NCBI GenBank assembly: GCA_017994125.1
Contig: JAGOLJ010000001.1
Coordinates: 1 to 55,683, forward strand
From: Candidatus Altimarinota bacterium
Lineage (GTDB): Bacteria; Patescibacteriota; Gracilibacteria; UBA1369
Reading direction: 5' to 3'
DNA: 55,683 bases
The notes beneath the pieces were generated by a model. It saw only the letters and a list, made by a program, of their open reading frames with translations, was not told where the DNA came from and ran no database searches. Made by a program: the position numbers and the translations under genes. The stretch's first letter is position 1; each line of letters starts with the position of its first letter. Below, piece by piece: positions 8,209 to 17,545 of the stretch.

Positions 8209-10563
8209 ATGCCCCTTAAGAAAACAAAGCTTGCCCTAATCTGCGGCGGCCCTTCTGCAGAAAGGGGCATTTCCCTCAACTCCGCCCGTTCCCTCTACGA
8301 CAATCTTGATAAAGATAAATATGAAATAAGCATTGTCTACTTTAACCCAAAACTTGAGCCCTTCGCTTTAGATAAATCACAGCTTTATTCCAACACCCCA
8401 CTTGATTTTGACTATAAACTAAAAAACTCCAGACTTAAATTAAACAAAAACCAGCTTAAACAAGCCTTGTCCAAAGTTGACGTGGTTTTCCCGGCCGTCC
8501 ACGGATTATACGGAGAAGATGGACAATTACAGCAATTACTGGAAAGCTTTAAGGTTAATTACGTAGGGTCCGGCCCAGAGGCCTGCCGGAATACCAGTGA
8601 TAAAGCCCTTTGCCAACAGATTCTGCAGAGATGCGGCTTTAACACAATCCCTAACTGGATCTACAGGAAAGGGGATCCCGTCCCCGATCTTCCTCATGGC
8701 GAATACGTAATAAAACCACTGCATGGAGGCTCCAGCATTGGCGTACATTACTTCAGCTCAACCGAAGAACTTAAAGAAAAAATCAAACACGTCTTCGTCC
8801 ATGAACCGGAAACCATCATTGAACCATTATGCATAGGCCAAGAGTTCACCATCATCGTACTTGAAAATGCCAGCCACGAACCTGTTGGACTGTTTCCCAC
8901 CGAAATTGAATTCAGTCAGGACAGGTTCTTTGATTATCGCAAAAAATATCTTGCCAGTACTGACACCCGTTACCACACTCCGGCACGATATGACAATGAA
9001 ACCATCAGCCTTATCCGGTCTGAGGCAGAAAGAGCCTTTAAATGCCTTGGTTTACGTGACTTTGCCCGTATCGACGGGTGGATTTTACCTGATGGAAAAA
9101 TCTGGTTCAGCGATGTTAACGCCATCAGCGGCATGGAGCAGAACAGTTTCCTGTTCCAGCAGGCATCAATTCTTGGATTAAGCCACGGCCAATTACTTGA
9201 TTATATTATCAATAAAAAGATTTATCCCGAGGCTCCCCATTCCAGAAGCAGGGAACTCATCCCGGTCATTTTTGGAGGCAACACAGCCGAAAGGCAGATT
9301 TCCGTCATGAGTGGAACCAATATCTGGATCAAACTCCGCAGTTCCCAGAAATACAAACCCGTCCCACTTATCCTCACCAGAAACTGGAAAATCTATCAGA
9401 TCCCACAATTCCTTTGTCTACATCATACCGTTGAAGAAATAGAAGAAAAGATTACCCAGCTATTAAAGCAGGGCTATCTGGAAAACCTTAAAAACGACCT
9501 TAAGAACCTATACCGCAAACTCGACATTAATCCCGCTGATTGCCAGGAAAAATTATTCAAGCCGCTCAAATTAACCTTAAGCCAGATAGCCAGGAAATAT
9601 AAATTTTTATTTTTAGGTTTACATGGTGGACATGGCGAAGATGGCACAATCCAGCAAAAACTCGATCACCTTAAATTACCCTATAACGGCCCCGGCCCCG
9701 CCAGCTCAAAAATATGCATGGATAAGTATCTTACCGGCAAACTTATCGAACAGGCAAAAATCCCGGGCGTAACAACCGCAAAGAAACTGCTCTTAAAAAT
9801 AAGCCCTGATTCCCAGAGTCTCTGGCAAAAAATACAGGACTCCGGATTAAAATCACCACTTATTTTAAAGCCACGCGGTGATGGCTGTTCAGCAGGGGTA
9901 ATAAGAATCAACAACTTTGACCACTTCGAAAAAACACTTGAATACTTTAATAGCGACCACACTTTCATCCCGGAAAAAGCAGTCCATAATTTCCATGGGA
10001 AAATCGAACTTCCCCATAAAAAAATTAAGGAAATCATGGTTGAAGAATACATAGTAACTGACAAAGTAAACCTGGATAACCTCATCATTGAATGGAAACC
10101 AGTTACCGACATTATAGAAGTCACCGTCGGCATGATTGGACCAAAGAACAATTTAAAGATATTCAATCCAAGCCAGACCATTGCAAGCCTGGAAATACTT
10201 AGTCTTGAAGAGAAATTCATGGGAGGCACAGGGATCAACCTTACCCCGCCACCGTCACGTTATGTAGACAGCGACGCAGTCGCAAAGGCAAAGCGGAATA
10301 TTAAGAAAGTTGCCAACCTTCTTGACATAGAGGGTTATAGTCGCATTGATACATTTTTAAATAGAAAGACAGGGGACTTGATCATAATTGAAGCCAACAC
10401 CTTGCCGGGGCTAACTCCATCAACAGTGATTTATCACCAGGCATTATCTGAAAAAAAATCAATGGACCCGTTAAAATTTATAGAAAAGATCATTGAAGTC
10501 GGCAAAAACAGATTCCATAGGAAAATCTCAAAAAGAATTAATAAAAAGAGTAAAAAGAAGTAA
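8209..10563 (+). CDS. Tandem (double) D-alanine--D-alanine ligase-like protein
   Basis: Two complete Ddl-type ATP-grasp modules in one 784-aa chain, where the family norm is 300-370 aa. Module 1 (about 1-340): ICGGPSAERGIS, HGLYGEDG at 98-105, KPLHGGSSIGV at 169-179, ARIDG at 286-290, DVNAISGM at 302-309 (the usual E-x-N is D-x-N). Module 2 (about 349-770): VIFGGNTAERQIS, HGGHGEDG at 472-479, KPRGDGCSAGV at 554-564, SRIDTF at 711-716, EANTLPGLTPST at 728-739. Module 2 also has extra segments (about 400-465 and 590-680). Both modules keep ATP and metal ligands, so both may be active. The expected product is D-Ala-D-Ala for peptidoglycan; a second amino or hydroxy acid substrate is possible. 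The tail is Lys/Arg-rich. It starts 10 nt after recG. Confidence 0.88.
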   Translation: MPLKKTKLALICGGPSAERGISLNSARSLYDNLDKDKYEISIVYFNPKLEPFALDKSQLYSNTPLDFDYKLKNSRLKLNKNQLKQALSKVDVVFPAVHGLYGEDGQLQQLLESFKVNYVGSGPEACRNTSDKALCQQILQRCGFNTIPNWIYRKGDPVPDLPHGEYVIKPLHGGSSIGVHYFSSTEELKEKIKHVFVHEPETIIEPLCIGQEFTIIVLENASHEPVGLFPTEIEFSQDRFFDYRKKYLASTDTRYHTPARYDNETISLIRSEAERAFKCLGLRDFARIDGWILPDGKIWFSDVNAISGMEQNSFLFQQASILGLSHGQLLDYIINKKIYPEAPHSRSRELIPVIFGGNTAERQISVMSGTNIWIKLRSSQKYKPVPLILTRNWKIYQIPQFLCLHHTVEEIEEKITQLLKQGYLENLKNDLKNLYRKLDINPADCQEKLFKPLKLTLSQIARKYKFLFLGLHGGHGEDGTIQQKLDHLKLPYNGPGPASSKICMDKYLTGKLIEQAKIPGVTTAKKLLLKISPDSQSLWQKIQDSGLKSPLILKPRGDGCSAGVIRINNFDHFEKTLEYFNSDHTFIPEKAVHNFHGKIELPHKKIKEIMVEEYIVTDKVNLDNLIIEWKPVTDIIEVTVGMIGPKNNLKIFNPSQTIASLEILSLEEKFMGGTGINLTPPPSRYVDSDAVAKAKRNIKKVANLLDIEGYSRIDTFLNRKTGDLIIIEANTLPGLTPSTVIYHQALSEKKSMDPLKFIEKIIEVGKNRFHRKISKRINKKSKKK

Positions 10564-10784: not shown

Positions 10785-12428
10785 TTACATCTTCCCTTCT
10801 ATAACTTTGGATACGGTTGTTGCTCTAATAACATCCTGCTTATCCTTATTCTTTTTCAAAAACGCAAATAATGCACCCGACTTTGATGGATCACCAAGAT
10901 ACGCACTCATTTTTTGAATACGCTCCTCCATAAAATTATATCCTTGCGCTGTATCCTCATTTATAAGCACAATAAACAGATTTCTCATCATCAGATAATC
11001 CTCTGCCTGCATAACCTGCGTCCTTAACCTCAATAAATTATCCGCCATTTCCACCATCACTTTATCCGTAATCGCAGCATTGATATTGGGTGGAATCCTG
11101 ATGCCCGAAGACCCCAACTGGTCATTAAGAAGCCCTTTATTGAGAATGTAGTCCAGCGATAATCTCCTTATTAAGTCAACCATGTCATCAGGCTTACATA
11201 AAACCCATTTCTTATTAAATTCATCAAAAACTCTATACGAAGAAATACCTCCATTAATATCTCTGATGATTCTTACTTTAGGATGAAAATCCTGGGTAAA
11301 AGTATCCATAACAGGAACATCTAACGTCCCGTCACCTCTCACGCTATATCCGCTATAAGAAGAATAAGTGTCAAAGCTGCTCCCCAAACCAGTTCCTGAA
11401 GATGACTGAGTAGGAGGCAGATTACCAGGCTGAGTGCTCCCCTGCCTTGTCTGGCTTTCTTTAATCCTGTTTTCAGTTTCTTTATTAGCCTGATTCATCA
11501 TTTCCTGCCACTCGGCATCGCTCTTACCCGAAAATGCGACCATTTTACCAACGCTTTGATCAAGCTTTATCTGATTTACATAAAGCTCTTCGCTTAACGT
11601 CAATAAATCCTCAAATAATAAATTTATAGCATCTATATTTTTTGTAACATCGACTCCCTTTCCTGAAAACAAAGCCAAAAAAGCCTTTTTAAACTTTTCC
11701 TTACCGCCATATTTTTTTTCAAAATCATCGGCAGTTAAAGAGTTATATTCAACCAGGGCTTTTTCATGCTTTTGTGTAAATGACAGGATATTTTTAGCTA
11801 CTTCATCCCTCACCGCCAGCTTTTCAAGATTTTTACCGTTATCTTCATCGATTTCAAAAATCTGGTTCAGGGTATTCTCACTTGAAACAGAAACCGAAGC
11901 TTCATAATTCTGCCTCATTAGTTTTAAGCTTTCATCCCTCACATACGTTATAAACTCCTTATTCTGCCTTAACTGCTCAAGCGACGGCTTTGGCACAGCT
12001 ATATCTTTATAATTCTTATTCAAAAACTCCTCATAACAGGAATCGAGCAATGCCGAAAAAACATCCTTGGAAAAAATTTGATTAAGTGATGCTTCATAAA
12101 ACTCTTTTTCAATATTCCTGCTCCCCTCAGTAGTGGTGTTTCTTTCTCTGATCTCATCTTTTATTGATTTCTTAAGCAAATCCCTAAAGAAATTTTCCGA
12201 ATTTGAATCCAGGTTTAAACTGAAATTAATAATCGTCTCTCTTCTTATTGTCTCTCCTACTCTGCTTTTTCTTTCCACCAGATGCCTTTGAACGGCATCT
12301 CTGTTCCTGCTTTCGTATTTTTCCTGAGTCCTTCTATCCAACCTTAAACGTTCAGATACGATTCGTGTATCCAATCTTAGAAGATTCGACTCAGGAGATC
12401 CTCCTCCCTCACCAGGTGCAAGCCCCAT
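10785..12428 (-). CDS. Hypothetical 547-aa protein
   Basis: I do not recognise this protein. It has a Gly/Arg-rich start (GLAPGEGGGSPESN), then about 300 charged, mainly helical residues. A low-complexity linker rich in Gln, Ser, Thr, Gly and Tyr (about 325-370) leads to a more globular C-terminal part (about 375-547), which begins near HPKVRIIRDINGG. There is no signal peptide and no membrane segment, so it is probably cytoplasmic. A good promoter lies just upstream and neither neighbour runs into it, so it looks like a single-gene transcript. The 221-nt gap beyond its 3' end, towards the convergent ddl gene, holds only weak inverted repeats. Confidence 0.75.
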   Translation of the reverse strand: MGLAPGEGGGSPESNLLRLDTRIVSERLRLDRRTQEKYESRNRDAVQRHLVERKSRVGETIRRETIINFSLNLDSNSENFFRDLLKKSIKDEIRERNTTTEGSRNIEKEFYEASLNQIFSKDVFSALLDSCYEEFLNKNYKDIAVPKPSLEQLRQNKEFITYVRDESLKLMRQNYEASVSVSSENTLNQIFEIDEDNGKNLEKLAVRDEVAKNILSFTQKHEKALVEYNSLTADDFEKKYGGKEKFKKAFLALFSGKGVDVTKNIDAINLLFEDLLTLSEELYVNQIKLDQSVGKMVAFSGKSDAEWQEMMNQANKETENRIKESQTRQGSTQPGNLPPTQSSSGTGLGSSFDTYSSYSGYSVRGDGTLDVPVMDTFTQDFHPKVRIIRDINGGISSYRVFDEFNKKWVLCKPDDMVDLIRRLSLDYILNKGLLNDQLGSSGIRIPPNINAAITDKVMVEMADNLLRLRTQVMQAEDYLMMRNLFIVLINEDTAQGYNFMEERIQKMSAYLGDPSKSGALFAFLKKNKDKQDVIRATTVSKVIEGKM

Positions 12429-12506: not shown

Positions 12507-14093
12507 TTACAGGGGCTTAACCATATAGGTCCCCTCCAGCTGGTAACCAAGCTTACGATAATATTCCCTCACTCCAATCCCGCTTATTACCGCAATCCTG
12601 CTAAATCCATGTTTTTTGCTTATTTCTTCAGCTTTTTGGATCATCCTTCTTCCCAAGCCTATATGCTGTGAATCATTATTCCCCTTTTCTCCAACCTTAA
12701 CCTGCTCACCATAAGTATGAACTTCACGGATAATAGCGGCTCCATCCAGCTCCTTTATAAAATGTTTTCGCCCTTCCTGACTATATGAACTAAATCTCAA
12801 TCTTAAAAGAGAACAAAGCTTATCCCTCTTACTGTCCTCATAACTGATAAAAAACTCTTTCCCCCTGGATGCATCATATTCCGTTATCTTAAGGCTTAAA
12901 TCATCAATCACCACCTTCTCATCCTGAATTTCACGGCAACGTATACATCGACATTTCAAGCCATCCTGCTCCATTTTTTGATGAATTACCTGGCGGATAT
13001 TGGAAATCTTGCTTCCAGCCAGTATTGAACCTGCCGGAATATCCCTGTAAAGACGGGCAATCCTCACATATTCCGGAACCATTAACTTTATTTTTATAAG
13101 CAGATCAATCAGCTCCTCATCAGTGTAAGGGCGGTATTTCCCTTCTTTATAAAGCTTCTCCAGTTGCGACCAGGGAACAACCATGCATGGATAAATTTTT
13201 AACCAATCCGGCCGGTAATCCGGATTCTCAAAAAGTTTTTTAAAATCGTTCAAATCTTTTTCAATGTTACTTCCATAAAGATTCGGCATTACATGACAAT
13301 TTATTTTAAACCCGGCATCCTTAAGCAGCCTTATTGCAGTAGCGGTTTCTGCCGTCCCGTGTCCACGGTTATTTAGCGCAAGAATCTCATCATCAAGGCT
13401 CTGCACACCCAACTCCACTTTAGTAGCCCCAAGTAACCTAAATCGCTTCACCTCTTTTTCCGTAACATAATCCGGGCGAGTTTCCACCGAAAGGCCGATG
13501 CACCTGTGTTTAGCTGTTTCATTTTCTTTCTGTGCCCCAGGCAAAGTCCCATCCCCCATCTTATCCTCATTAAGGGCATTAAAAAGGCCTTTCACAAAAC
13601 TTGTCTGATATCTGGCGGGATAATAGGAAAAAGTGCCCCCGGAAATAATAATTTCAATTTTGTCCGTATTGTGGCCGGCTTTCTCCAAACTCATCAGTCT
13701 GTTACGCACCTGCCTGTAGCCGCTAAAATCGCTAAGAATAGCCCTCATCACGGCGGGCTCATTGGAAAGATAGCTTTTTGGCATCCCTGGTTCACCCGGA
13801 CAGTAGATACATCCGCCGGGACAGGCATAAGCCTTTGTTATTACGGTTATTGAAGCAATTCCCGACTTTGACCGAACCCCGCGTTTTCGTAGTAAATTCC
13901 AGAATTTTTTATCTAAAGACAATACCTCTTTCTCCATTAAAGACCTATATGCCTCTAAAAGCTCTACATTGGAAAACAGGGGCCGCTTAAACTTAAGCGC
14001 ATATTTGCTCTTAAGTGTATGGATTTGCTCTACATCGGAAACTTTTTTATCTAAAGCCTCCAGGATAAACTCTTCGGCCGGTGTGTTTGCCAT
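12507..14093 (-). CDS. elp3: Elp3-like radical SAM/GNAT tRNA U34 modification enzyme
   Basis: Catalytic Elongator-type enzyme. In the family it transfers a carboxymethyl group, derived from acetyl-CoA, to C5 of wobble uridine (cm5U34). A radical-SAM domain fills about residues 75-390, with the Fe-S cysteines at 91, 95 and 98 (CPGGCIYC), i.e. CX3CX2C. A KCRCIRCRE segment at about 378-386 is the family's second Cys cluster. A GNAT acetyltransferase domain follows (about 395-528), ending GIGVREYYRKLGYQLEG as in Elp3. At 528 aa it is full length. It is divergent from a Trm9-like methyltransferase gene 46 nt away, which suggests a shared pathway. Confidence 0.92.
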   Translation of the reverse strand: MANTPAEEFILEALDKKVSDVEQIHTLKSKYALKFKRPLFSNVELLEAYRSLMEKEVLSLDKKFWNLLRKRGVRSKSGIASITVITKAYACPGGCIYCPGEPGMPKSYLSNEPAVMRAILSDFSGYRQVRNRLMSLEKAGHNTDKIEIIISGGTFSYYPARYQTSFVKGLFNALNEDKMGDGTLPGAQKENETAKHRCIGLSVETRPDYVTEKEVKRFRLLGATKVELGVQSLDDEILALNNRGHGTAETATAIRLLKDAGFKINCHVMPNLYGSNIEKDLNDFKKLFENPDYRPDWLKIYPCMVVPWSQLEKLYKEGKYRPYTDEELIDLLIKIKLMVPEYVRIARLYRDIPAGSILAGSKISNIRQVIHQKMEQDGLKCRCIRCREIQDEKVVIDDLSLKITEYDASRGKEFFISYEDSKRDKLCSLLRLRFSSYSQEGRKHFIKELDGAAIIREVHTYGEQVKVGEKGNNDSQHIGLGRRMIQKAEEISKKHGFSRIAVISGIGVREYYRKLGYQLEGTYMVKPL

Positions 14094-14139
14094 TTATAAT
14101 TACTAGTTATACACTTTGCAGGCCAGATTATATTAGAGA

Positions 14140-14883
14140 ATGAAAGAAAAGACAGCCCAAAAACTACTTTTAAAGGTCAAATCGGACTATGAACTCATAG
14201 CAGAAGATTTTGACCGTACCCGCGATAAAATCAAAGACGGATTTACCGTATTCGATAAATACCTTAAACCAGGTAAACAGCTTAACCATAAGCTAACCAT
14301 TGCCGATATAGGATGCGGAAATGGCAGATTGTTAAAGCACCTCTCAAGCCTTAATCCGAAGCCCGATTACCAATATATCGGGATAGATACAAGTAAAAAA
14401 CTTATCGAAATCGCCAGAGGAAAATACCAGAACTTGCCTAACACCAGGTTCATCCAGGGTGATATGCTGGCTATCCCCCTCCCCGACTCATCTTTGGATC
14501 TCATTTTTAATATCAGGGCCTTTCATCATATCCCCTCAAAAAAACTTCAATTAAAAGCCCTGTCGGAAGCCATTCGTACCCTTAAAAATGGTGGTCGCAT
14601 TATTATTACCGTCTGGAATTTATGGCAATGGCGCACAAAACACCTCATTATTAAAAGTTTCCTCAACTTCATTCTCTCATTTGGACAATATGCCCCCAAT
14701 GACACCTTCATCAAATGGGGCCGAAAGACTCAAAGGTATTATCATGGTTTCACCCCGTCCGAACTTAAAAAGCTGATTCATAAATCCGGACTTGTTCTGG
14801 AAGAGATGTTCGGACTGGCCAAAGACACCAAAACCCCTATACTAAAAGGGCATGACATTGTAATCATAGCCAGGAAACCATGA
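14140..14883 (+). CDS. Trm9/ALKBH8-like SAM methyltransferase (putative tRNA cm5U34 methylase)
   Basis: Class I SAM methyltransferase with motif I ADIGCGNGRLL at 55-65 and GIDTSKKLIEIA at 81-92. Beyond the generic fold it resembles the Trm9 family: an N-terminal YELIAEDFDRTR (cf. the family's YDxIAxxFsxTR), FHHIPSKKLQLKAL, the VWNLWQW stretch at 158-164, and DTFIKWGRKTQRYYHGF at 188-204. In eukaryotes Trm9 methylates cm5U34 to mcm5U34 with Trm112. The divergent neighbour is elp3, the cm5U34 maker, so the same role is inferred here. No Trm112 gene is visible. A generic methyltransferase cannot be excluded. It overlaps the next gene by ATGA. Confidence 0.72.
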   Translation: MKEKTAQKLLLKVKSDYELIAEDFDRTRDKIKDGFTVFDKYLKPGKQLNHKLTIADIGCGNGRLLKHLSSLNPKPDYQYIGIDTSKKLIEIARGKYQNLPNTRFIQGDMLAIPLPDSSLDLIFNIRAFHHIPSKKLQLKALSEAIRTLKNGGRIIITVWNLWQWRTKHLIIKSFLNFILSFGQYAPNDTFIKWGRKTQRYYHGFTPSELKKLIHKSGLVLEEMFGLAKDTKTPILKGHDIVIIARKP

Positions 14884-15704
14884 ACACATACCCTATCCTT
14901 GGCATCCCCTTTTCATCAATGGATGAAATGCAGGTTTTGGACCTTATTCTTGATAAAATTGAATTACCAGATCAACAACTATTCATTGCGACTCCTAACC
15001 CAGAGATGATCCTTGAATCCATTAAGGATAAAGATTTTAAAAAGCTCCTTCAAAATACCAGCTTCAACATTCCGGATGGAATAGGGATTTTATGGGCTGC
15101 GACCTATCTCAATGCCAGCGCCAATGCCAAATCACATCTGATCAAATTTTTCATTTTTCTTAAGACACTGTTCTACATCCCGCTGGCACCAAAGAAAATT
15201 CGAAAAATGCTTCCCAAAAGAGTAACGGGAACAGACATGATGCAAATCATTTGCAGCAGAATTCCAACAACACATAGTGTTTTCCTGCTTGGAGCTGCTG
15301 AAGGAGTAGCAAAAACCGCGGGCGCCAAAATCAATCAAAGATATGGAACAAATATTGCCGGATCCCACGCCGGCTCGCCCGCCCCCGATCAGGAAAATCG
15401 CCTTCGCGACCTAATCAACCACTCGGGCGCCGACATCCTTTTTGTGGCTTACGGCTCGCCCGCCCAGGAATTCTGGATTAAACGCAACCTCCCAAAACTC
15501 CATAACATTAAACTGGCCATGGGGATTGGAGGAGCTTTCGATTTCATTGCCGGCACTAAAAAACGGGCCCCCGCCATTCTCCGAAAAACCGGACTTGAAT
15601 GGTTCTTCAGGCTCATCATCCAGCCATCCCGCTTCGTAAGGATTTTTAACGCTACGGTTAAATTCCCTTTAACCGTCTTCCTTTCATCAATCCAGAAAAA
15701 ATAA
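14880..15704 (+). CDS. WecG/TagA/CpsF family glycosyltransferase (GT26)
   Basis: Adds a sugar such as N-acetylmannosamine to a lipid-linked carrier at the inner face of the membrane during cell-wall polymer synthesis. Family features: TPNPEMI near residue 39, IPDGIGILWA near 64-73, the VTGTDMM segment, and the conserved GSPAQEFWI with AMGIGGAFDFIAG further on. It ends with a hydrophobic and basic tail typical of membrane-associated GT26 enzymes. At 274 aa it is normal to slightly long. Its ATG overlaps the methyltransferase stop by 4 nt, so the two are coupled although their roles look unrelated. The exact sugar is not predictable. Confidence 0.88.
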   Translation: MNTYPILGIPFSSMDEMQVLDLILDKIELPDQQLFIATPNPEMILESIKDKDFKKLLQNTSFNIPDGIGILWAATYLNASANAKSHLIKFFIFLKTLFYIPLAPKKIRKMLPKRVTGTDMMQIICSRIPTTHSVFLLGAAEGVAKTAGAKINQRYGTNIAGSHAGSPAPDQENRLRDLINHSGADILFVAYGSPAQEFWIKRNLPKLHNIKLAMGIGGAFDFIAGTKKRAPAILRKTGLEWFFRLIIQPSRFVRIFNATVKFPLTVFLSSIQKK

Positions 15705-16105: not shown

Positions 16106-17545
16106 TTATTTTAAAAGCTCCATTAATATTTCATTCACCATTTTAGCATTTGCCTGTCCTTTTGTCTGCTTCATTACCTGTCCAACTAAAAATCCCAAAG
16201 CATTACTCTTGCCACTCTTATAATCGACAACAGATTTTTCGTTTTCAGAAACAGTCTTCTTACAAATTTCCCTTATAGCCGAATCGTCATTCATCACTGT
16301 TAAACCTTTAAGCGCAACAACATCGGCAGCGGATTTCCCGCTGTTATACATTTCTTCAAAGACCTCTGCCTTAGCCAAATTCATGGAAACATCTCCTTTA
16401 TTCACCATAGATATCAAATCAGCCATGCTTTCGGGAGACACTTTTACATCCTTTATTCCCAAACCATCTTTTTTCATATGGCTCAACAAAATCGTGGTCA
16501 CAAAAGTAGCTGCCTTCTTTGGATCATTACACCTGGCAACAACTATCTCAAAATACTTGGCCATTTCGAAGTCAGCGCTTATAAGCTCAGCTTCAGCCTG
16601 GGAAACGGCATAATCTTTTTGATACCTTGCACACTTTTCAGCTGGCATTTCGGGTATTTCCTTCTTTAAAGTTTCAATAAAATCCTTACCTATTTTTAAC
16701 GGCGGCAAATCCGGTTCCGGGAAATAACGATAATCATCAGCCCCCTCCTTGTCTCTCAAAAAATACGTCTTCTGGTGATCATCACTCCAACCAACCGTAA
16801 CATCATTTTCAAGCTTATTTCCGCCTTCCCATAAATAAACCTGCCTCTCAATTTCATAGTCTATCGCAGCTTCCAAAGAACGGAATGAATTCAGGTTTTT
16901 TATTTCCGCCCTGTGATAAAGTTTGCCGTCACCCTTCGGACGGATGGAAACACTGGCATCAAAACGCATCATCCCCTTTTCCATATCCGCCTCCGAAGAT
17001 CCGCTATAACGTAAAATAGTCTGCAATTCTTTCGCATATAAAACCGCATCCTTTGCCGAGCGCAGGTCCGGCTCGCTTACAATTTCCATTAACGGAATAC
17101 CGGAACGGTTATAATCACAAAGCGTTCCTCCTTCAATATGCATTAATTTCCCCGCATCATCTTCCAGGTGCAAACGGGTAATATTAATCTTTTTCTTATC
17201 GGCATCCGGTCCTATTTCAAGCCACCCTTTTTCCGCAACGGGCTGGTCATATTGGGAAATCTGGTATCCTTTCGGTAAATCCGGATAAAAGTAATTTTTT
17301 CTATCAAACTTGCTGACTTCCGGCACATTACAACGCAATGCCAAAGCAGCCTTTAGCCCTTTATTCAGGGCATCCACATTAATCACAGGCAACTGTCCCG
17401 GAAAACCCATACAGATCGGACAGGTATTTATATTGGGATCTTTACCAAAAGAATCGCTGCTGCATGAGCAGAACATTTTTGTTTTTGTTGATATCTGTGC
17501 ATGGACTTCAAGTCCTATTACAGCTTCAAAATCAGAAGTAGGCAT
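16106..17545 (-). CDS. gatB: Aspartyl/glutamyl-tRNA amidotransferase subunit B
   Basis: tRNA-binding and kinase subunit of GatCAB, which turns Glu-tRNA-Gln and/or Asp-tRNA-Asn into the correct amidated tRNAs. The N-terminus EAVIGLEVHAQISTKTKMFC is diagnostic. Zn-site cysteines follow (CSCSSD and NTCPICMGFPGQLP), then DFNRSGIPLMEIVSEPD-like and FPEPDLPPL segments. The C-terminal YqeY-like domain ends in GQVMKQTKGQANAKMVNEIL. At 479 aa it is full length. gatA and gatC are not in this window, so the complex is encoded at separate loci. Confidence 0.96.
   Translation of the reverse strand: MPTSDFEAVIGLEVHAQISTKTKMFCSCSSDSFGKDPNINTCPICMGFPGQLPVINVDALNKGLKAALALRCNVPEVSKFDRKNYFYPDLPKGYQISQYDQPVAEKGWLEIGPDADKKKINITRLHLEDDAGKLMHIEGGTLCDYNRSGIPLMEIVSEPDLRSAKDAVLYAKELQTILRYSGSSEADMEKGMMRFDASVSIRPKGDGKLYHRAEIKNLNSFRSLEAAIDYEIERQVYLWEGGNKLENDVTVGWSDDHQKTYFLRDKEGADDYRYFPEPDLPPLKIGKDFIETLKKEIPEMPAEKCARYQKDYAVSQAEAELISADFEMAKYFEIVVARCNDPKKAATFVTTILLSHMKKDGLGIKDVKVSPESMADLISMVNKGDVSMNLAKAEVFEEMYNSGKSAADVVALKGLTVMNDDSAIREICKKTVSENEKSVVDYKSGKSNALGFLVGQVMKQTKGQANAKMVNEILMELLK

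Follow-up and report, generated by a model that had tools for sequence, protein, structure and literature searches.

Does a divergent pair of genes in a patescibacterial genome, one resembling Elp3 and the other Trm9, form a route by which a bacterium modifies wobble uridine 34 (U34) of its tRNAs? The pair lies in a window of 55,683 nucleotides (the whole stretch of DNA that was analysed) on contig C16 of a draft genome of 1.14 Mb (127 contigs, 90% complete); among named lineages its nearest relatives are Candidatus Peregrinibacteria and Peribacteria (Patescibacteria). The features under discussion are as follows.

12507..14093, minus strand: elp3, a radical SAM and GNAT (KAT) enzyme of 528 aa, the predicted maker of cm5U at tRNA U34
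14094..14139, no strand: divergent intergenic spacer, 46 bp between start codons (from the ORF coordinates)
14140..14883, plus strand: Trm9-like class I SAM methyltransferase of 247 aa, whose predicted reaction is the methyl esterification of cm5U34 to mcm5U34
14880..15704, plus strand: WecG/TagA/CpsF glycosyltransferase (PF03808, E 7e-49)

The ORF positions bear out the coordinates, the 46-bp separation and the divergent orientation given in a first-pass annotation of this DNA. Any promoters within the spacer must be shared or overlapping, and a promoter scan returned a single weak sigma-70-like match (plus strand, 14087-14115), which was not above chance. For comparison we used 89 whole genomes from the same taxonomic order as the host, a sample of 145 Patescibacteria with completeness of at least 80%, and 80 methyltransferase loci from a genome collection, drawn from Peregrinibacteria, Peribacteria, Gracilibacteria and many Parcubacteria lineages (Nealson-, Portnoy-, Staskawicz-, Uhr-, Magasanik-, Kuenen-, Campbell- and Wildermuthbacteria). 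An argument from decoding capacity was dropped, because the draft assembly yields too incomplete a set of tRNAs.

Judged by its sequence, the gene at 12507-14093 (minus strand) is a full-length Elp3 with radical SAM and GNAT domains, as the first-pass annotation had it. The protein matches TIGR01211 over residues 13-527, scoring 580.8 bits where the cut-off is 350, and in the PDB it finds the archaeal structures 6ia8/6iaz at E ~1e-127 and yeast Elp3 at 9e-104, the alignment with solved archaeal and eukaryotic Elp3 spanning the radical SAM, linker and GNAT domains. Its Fe-S cysteines are C91, C95 and C98, giving a CX3CX2C motif that had been described as a compact variant. The spacing is indeed as described, but it is no peculiarity of this protein, being the same in 110/110 patescibacterial Elp3s that cover the site in the alignment; that of the archaeal MinElp3, CX4CX2C, is one residue longer. 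CX3CX2C is the usual spacing among radical-SAM proteins. In Elp3 of Methanocaldococcus infernus, E207, K302 and Y304 position acetate, and mutation shows that they are needed (PMC13315578); the corresponding E204, K299 and Y301 are unchanged in 111/111 related Elp3s and in MinElp3. Cysteines 381, 383 and 386 make up the Zn site of the linker. We predict that the enzyme forms cm5U34 in tRNA.

The linkage of elp3 to the methyltransferase gene is far above chance. Both genes occur in 76 of the 89 genomes of the order, and in 71 of these 76 they are divergent on one contig, while the other five are draft assemblies with the two genes on separate contigs. The gap between the divergent pairs ranges from 41 to 2041 bp and is at most 251 bp in 62 of the 71. 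In a 77th genome, G087, Elp3 adjoins a methyltransferase match that is weaker (52 bits). In 67 of the 80 loci Elp3 is a divergent neighbour, and in no locus is it a codirectional one. Several of the remaining loci run into the end of a contig, and in seven the upstream sequence extends for at least 3 kb without Elp3. The association with elp3 that the first-pass annotation had drawn from a single locus thus extends to the relatives surveyed. Across the phylum sample, Elp3 was found in 57/145 genomes and the methyltransferase in 39/145, and every one of the 39 methyltransferase genomes was Elp3-positive (hypergeometric p about 9e-22), with 34 of them carrying the divergent pair on one contig. 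A two-gene system of this sort had been called unusual in bacteria, which holds for its kind but not for its frequency, as it is standard across a large part of one phylum. The dependence runs in one direction: 18 of the 57 Elp3-positive Patescibacteria have no methyltransferase at the cut-off used, so the methyltransferase is not needed wherever Elp3 occurs, and in those 18 genomes the modification may stop at cm5U or at some other derivative. We also observed a subclade (L080, L088, L089, L095, L101, L103 and L133; 100/99 in a 110-row tree) that has the methyltransferase without Elp3 in the fetched stretch.

MnmE and MnmG, which the first-pass annotation had named as the normal bacterial enzymes for U34, proved to be missing from the relatives' genomes: the MnmE N-terminal domain was found in 0/89 genomes of the order, and MnmG above its cut-off likewise in 0/89, the expected control genomes being positive in both searches. 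MnmE was present in four of the 145 genomes of the phylum sample, none of which was Elp3-positive. MnmA, the bacterial U34 2-thiolase, scored above cut-off in 81/89 genomes of the order, the host genome included. Trm112 (PF03966) was detected in 1/89 genomes of the order, with controls positive, and this sole match (L062, G017:C114) falls in a 315-aa methyltransferase ORF and is a Trm112-methyltransferase fusion. Eukaryotic Trm9 requires Trm112 as a partner. Because Trm112 was searched for and is missing, we call the protein Trm9-like and not Trm9. The suggestion of a Trm9 pathway in a bacterium therefore stands with respect to a Trm9-like enzyme but not with respect to its partner, and points to a Trm112-less relative in place of a transplanted Trm9. 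As a separate observation, about 84 of the 145 Patescibacteria have neither of MnmE and Elp3, and U34 modification there, if any, is unexplained.

Generic Pfam/NCBIfam scans were rejected as a guide to the substrate of the methyltransferase, as they returned only 'class I methyltransferase' and many sub-threshold matches. The protein falls below the curated cut-offs for UbiE (52.3 bits vs 216) and BioC (44.7 vs 185), and it does not group with quinone, lipid or BioC methylases, the nearest solved relative by profile being Trm9. A single-sequence search of the PDB put Trm9 only sixth, with a modest E of 2.6e-8, and for this reason a family profile was needed. Built from 43 relatives within the order and searched against all PDB chains, the profile found Trm9 of Yarrowia lipolytica (5cm2) as its top chain, with 95.7 bits, E 2.7e-26 and 199/226 profile positions aligned. 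The runner-up, at 69.8 bits, was 26 bits lower and matched in the SAM core only; most of the non-Trm9 matches were confined to the SAM-binding half, whereas Trm9 aligned nearly end to end. In the reverse direction, a search of the 89 genomes with Yarrowia Trm9 gave the family gene as best match in 75 of the 77 genomes with any match, the two exceptions (G014 and G021) having no family member at cut-off. We also compared 44 columns that are at least 80% conserved in the family and were picked without regard to Trm9. Trm9 agrees with 30 of the 39 that it aligns to, whereas E. coli CmoM, CmoA, CmoB, UbiE and BioC and a second methyltransferase of the host genome agree with 13-23 of 41-43. Tested in these ways, the methyltransferase at 14140-14883 (plus strand) appears on its sequence to be related specifically to Trm9 beyond the SAM core, as had been proposed from its motifs.

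Those motifs (FHHIP, VWNLWQW and YYHGF) are present, and within the family H130, W159, R199 and F204 are nearly invariant among 103 relatives; further conserved positions are R28, H129, W193 and Y201. In yeast Trm9 (ScTrm9), the substitutions R29A, H115A, R241A, Y243A and N271A lead to loss of tRNA affinity and activity, the residues binding and orienting cm5U34-tRNA (PMC5372719). With the correspondence from ScTrm9 to Yarrowia Trm9 set by residue spacings (R-H 86, R-Y 2, Y-N 28), the counterparts of these five are R28, H129, R199, Y201 and position 239. Their conservation in the family (n=103) is R28 103/103, H129 95/103, R199 101/103, Y201 84/103 and N239 95/103, Y201 being missing in about 18/103. 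The protein of the window thus keeps four of the five Trm9 active-site residues; its position 239 is D, in place of the N of the family and of Trm9. An AlphaFold2 model (pLDDT 94.1) contains a strand pair, 188-193/197-202, that bears W193 and R199-Y201. The active site of Trm9 is covered by a two-stranded lid (PMC5372719), and the modelled strand pair is in keeping with such a lid, a likeness drawn by description. The N-terminal Y17/I20/F24 element of the family differs from Trm9.

On the reading that we favour, the two enzymes would carry out successive steps on the same base. Elp3 would use its 4Fe-4S cluster and SAM to generate a 5'-deoxyadenosyl radical, and would couple an acetyl-derived unit, taken from acetyl-CoA, to C5 of U34, forming cm5U. 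The methyltransferase would then grip the same anticodon loop via R28, H129, R199 and Y201 and transfer the methyl group of SAM to the cm5U carboxylate, giving mcm5U in the manner of Trm9/ALKBH8 but without Trm112. Together with MnmA, the tRNAs for Lys, Glu and Gln may finish as mcm5s2U, and the pair would stand in for the absent cmnm5U pathway of MnmE/MnmG. Gene identities, linkage, co-occurrence, the absence of MnmE, MnmG and Trm112 and the conservation of active-site residues are established computationally; from them we infer the substrates, products, tRNA targets and Trm112 independence, and consider it likely that elp3 and the methyltransferase gene are a Trm112-free bacterial module for U34 hypermodification, from cm5U34 to mcm5U34. 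We read the module in this way because the methyltransferase depends on Elp3, the adjacency is kept, the Trm9 residues are present and MnmE and MnmG are not.

The alternative that survives best, though we regard it as unlikely, is that the methyltransferase follows Elp3 on U34 but yields a different xcm5U, for example by methylating a further-processed derivative of cm5U. The Elp3 pathways of archaea and bacteria are poorly mapped, ncm5U occurs in Thermoplasma (PMC5372719), and the Y17/I20/F24 element, the missing Trm112 and D239 all set the protein apart from Trm9. However, the residues with which Trm9 binds cm5U34 for carboxyl-methyl transfer are kept, which makes cm5U the simplest substrate.

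The downstream neighbour raises the prospect that the methyltransferase works with the WecG/TagA/CpsF glycosyltransferase in the synthesis of an envelope glycan, its adjacency to elp3 being incidental. The first 4 bp of the WecG-family gene are also the last 4 bp of the methyltransferase gene, suggesting co-transcription, and WecG lies within the fetched stretch in 36 of the 80 related loci. Yet Elp3 lies within that stretch in 67 of the 80 loci, it occurs without WecG in 40 of them against nine with WecG and without Elp3 (in the fetched stretch), Elp3 accompanies the methyltransferase in 39/39 cases across the phylum, and the lid and active-site residues are Trm9-like. We find a glycan role very improbable; the WecG-type gene is probably co-transcribed with the methyltransferase, and we do not think it part of the tRNA pathway.

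Equally improbable, in our view, is a tRNA methyltransferase of another type, such as a METTL6/Trm140-type enzyme for m3C32 or a CmoM-type enzyme acting on cmo5U34, linked to elp3 by chance. A fold search placed a Methanosarcina protein of unknown function first, Trm9 second and METTL6 structures at ranks 3, 4 and 8. We set this search aside as a discriminator, as Trm9, METTL6 and further class I enzymes were not told apart by it; in the profile search, where Trm9 led, no METTL6 chain was among the best 60. CmoM of E. coli (mcmo5U34) is a known bacterial wobble carboxyl methyltransferase and, like the predicted enzyme, a class I protein that esterifies the carboxyl group of U34. Unlike it, CmoM is without the Trm9 signature residues (HH, VW and RYY), agrees with 19 of 43 aligned conserved columns as against 30/39 for Trm9, and resembles the family only in the SAM fold. 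In the 110-row tree CmoM groups with UbiE, a placement to which a long-branch warning applies, and Trm9 itself sits in a polytomy owing to long branches, support in smaller trees being weak to moderate. One of these, with UbiE, BioC, CmoM, CmoA, CmoB and the second host methyltransferase, puts the family on the Trm9 side at 85/89.5, which is not decisive, and a second tree does not reject a common clade with Trm9 (p-AU 0.698), the Trm9 branch being long.

That the linkage is old synteny, kept because the lineage rearranges slowly and with no functional meaning, is scarcely credible, since although Peregrinibacteria also keep GatB and WecG in part as neighbours, the divergent elp3 link persists in Parcubacteria-type lineages after loss of these neighbours, and synteny alone leaves unexplained that the presence of the methyltransferase depends on that of Elp3.

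How, then, does the predicted cm5U34-to-mcm5U34 module compare with known systems? With eukaryotic Elongator (Elp3) and Trm9-Trm112/ALKBH8 it shares the core E, K, Y and Cys residues of Elp3 and, in the methyltransferase, the active-site R, H, R and Y, the HH, VWxLxQ and RYYH motifs and the best PDB profile match. Unlike the eukaryotic pathway, it is without Trm112 and its genes are adjacent and divergent; its Elp3 has CX3CX2C and the Zn-site linker cysteines, which are typical of bacterial and archaeal Elp3 and missing from eukaryotic Elp3 (PMC6367351).

Archaea likewise pair Elp3 with a Trm9 homologue: Sulfolobus solfataricus has the two in a cluster, and for Haloferax, with HVO_2888, HVO_0574 or HVO_1032 as Elp3 and Trm9-like genes, mcm5(s2)U is predicted (PMC2584109; PMC5372719). 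A haloarchaeal (Natronorubrum) methyltransferase agrees with 33 of the 44 columns conserved in the family, and its N-terminus has the element Y..I...F..TR...W. The methyltransferase on a plasmid of Natronorubrum bangense (L179:3518-4228), annotated no further than 'class I SAM-dependent', has a near-whole Trm9 signature (TR..W, HHLP, SVW, RFYHIY) and groups with yeast Trm9 at 99/95 in a tree. In contrast to the host of our pair, which is a bacterium, archaea possess Trm112 (controls positive). Archaeal U34 thiolation is thought to be the work of Tuc1/Ncs6-type enzymes (PMC2584109), whereas the U34 thiolase in the patescibacterial order is the bacterial MnmA.

The bacterial MnmE-MnmG (-MnmC/-MnmM) system, which makes cmnm5U/mnm5U34, has the same target base, shares MnmA and probably has the same decoding role, but both of its enzymes are missing from the patescibacterial order, and enzymes and chemistry are unrelated. 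A stand-alone bacterial Elp3 is also found in Dehalococcoides mccartyi, where it was termed 'a rare example of bacterial Elp3s' (PMC6367351); unlike it, the patescibacterial Elp3 is not rare and is standard in its lineages (57/145).

The authors of a 2017 review did not find bacterial genes resembling the methyltransferases that partner Trm112 (PMC5372719). Within the literature searched we found no report of a two-gene bacterial mcm5U pathway and no papers tying Elp3 to Patescibacteria or CPR. The Elp3/Trm9 route is already known elsewhere, and we therefore rate as new here its putative occurrence in bacteria, Trm112-free and instead of MnmE/MnmG. Taking the phylum as a whole, we lean towards the view that much of Patescibacteria decodes NNA/NNG codons via Elp3 and a Trm112-independent, Trm9-like mcm5(s2)U34, a two-gene pathway that would replace MnmE/MnmG outright. 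MnmE/MnmG is usually regarded as the bacterial U34 system, and if this view is right, one of the largest radiations of bacteria employs the other one, reduced to two neighbouring genes and free of Trm112. It would also offer enzymology a minimal Trm9, bearing on what Trm112 contributes, make a clear prediction for tRNA mass spectrometry in Patescibacteria, and pose the evolutionary question of archaeal transfer versus an ancient shared trait.

Three further genes of the window deserve mention. GatB (16106-17545, minus strand) lies within the fetched stretch of 22 of the 80 related loci. Downstream of elp3, a 547-aa ORF (10785-12428, minus strand) has no Pfam/NCBIfam match and no relative in the 80 loci. 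Beyond it, a 784-aa ORF (8209-10563, plus strand) contains two tandem D-Ala-D-Ala ligase units, with the N- and C-terminal Pfam domains present twice each, an unusual fusion.
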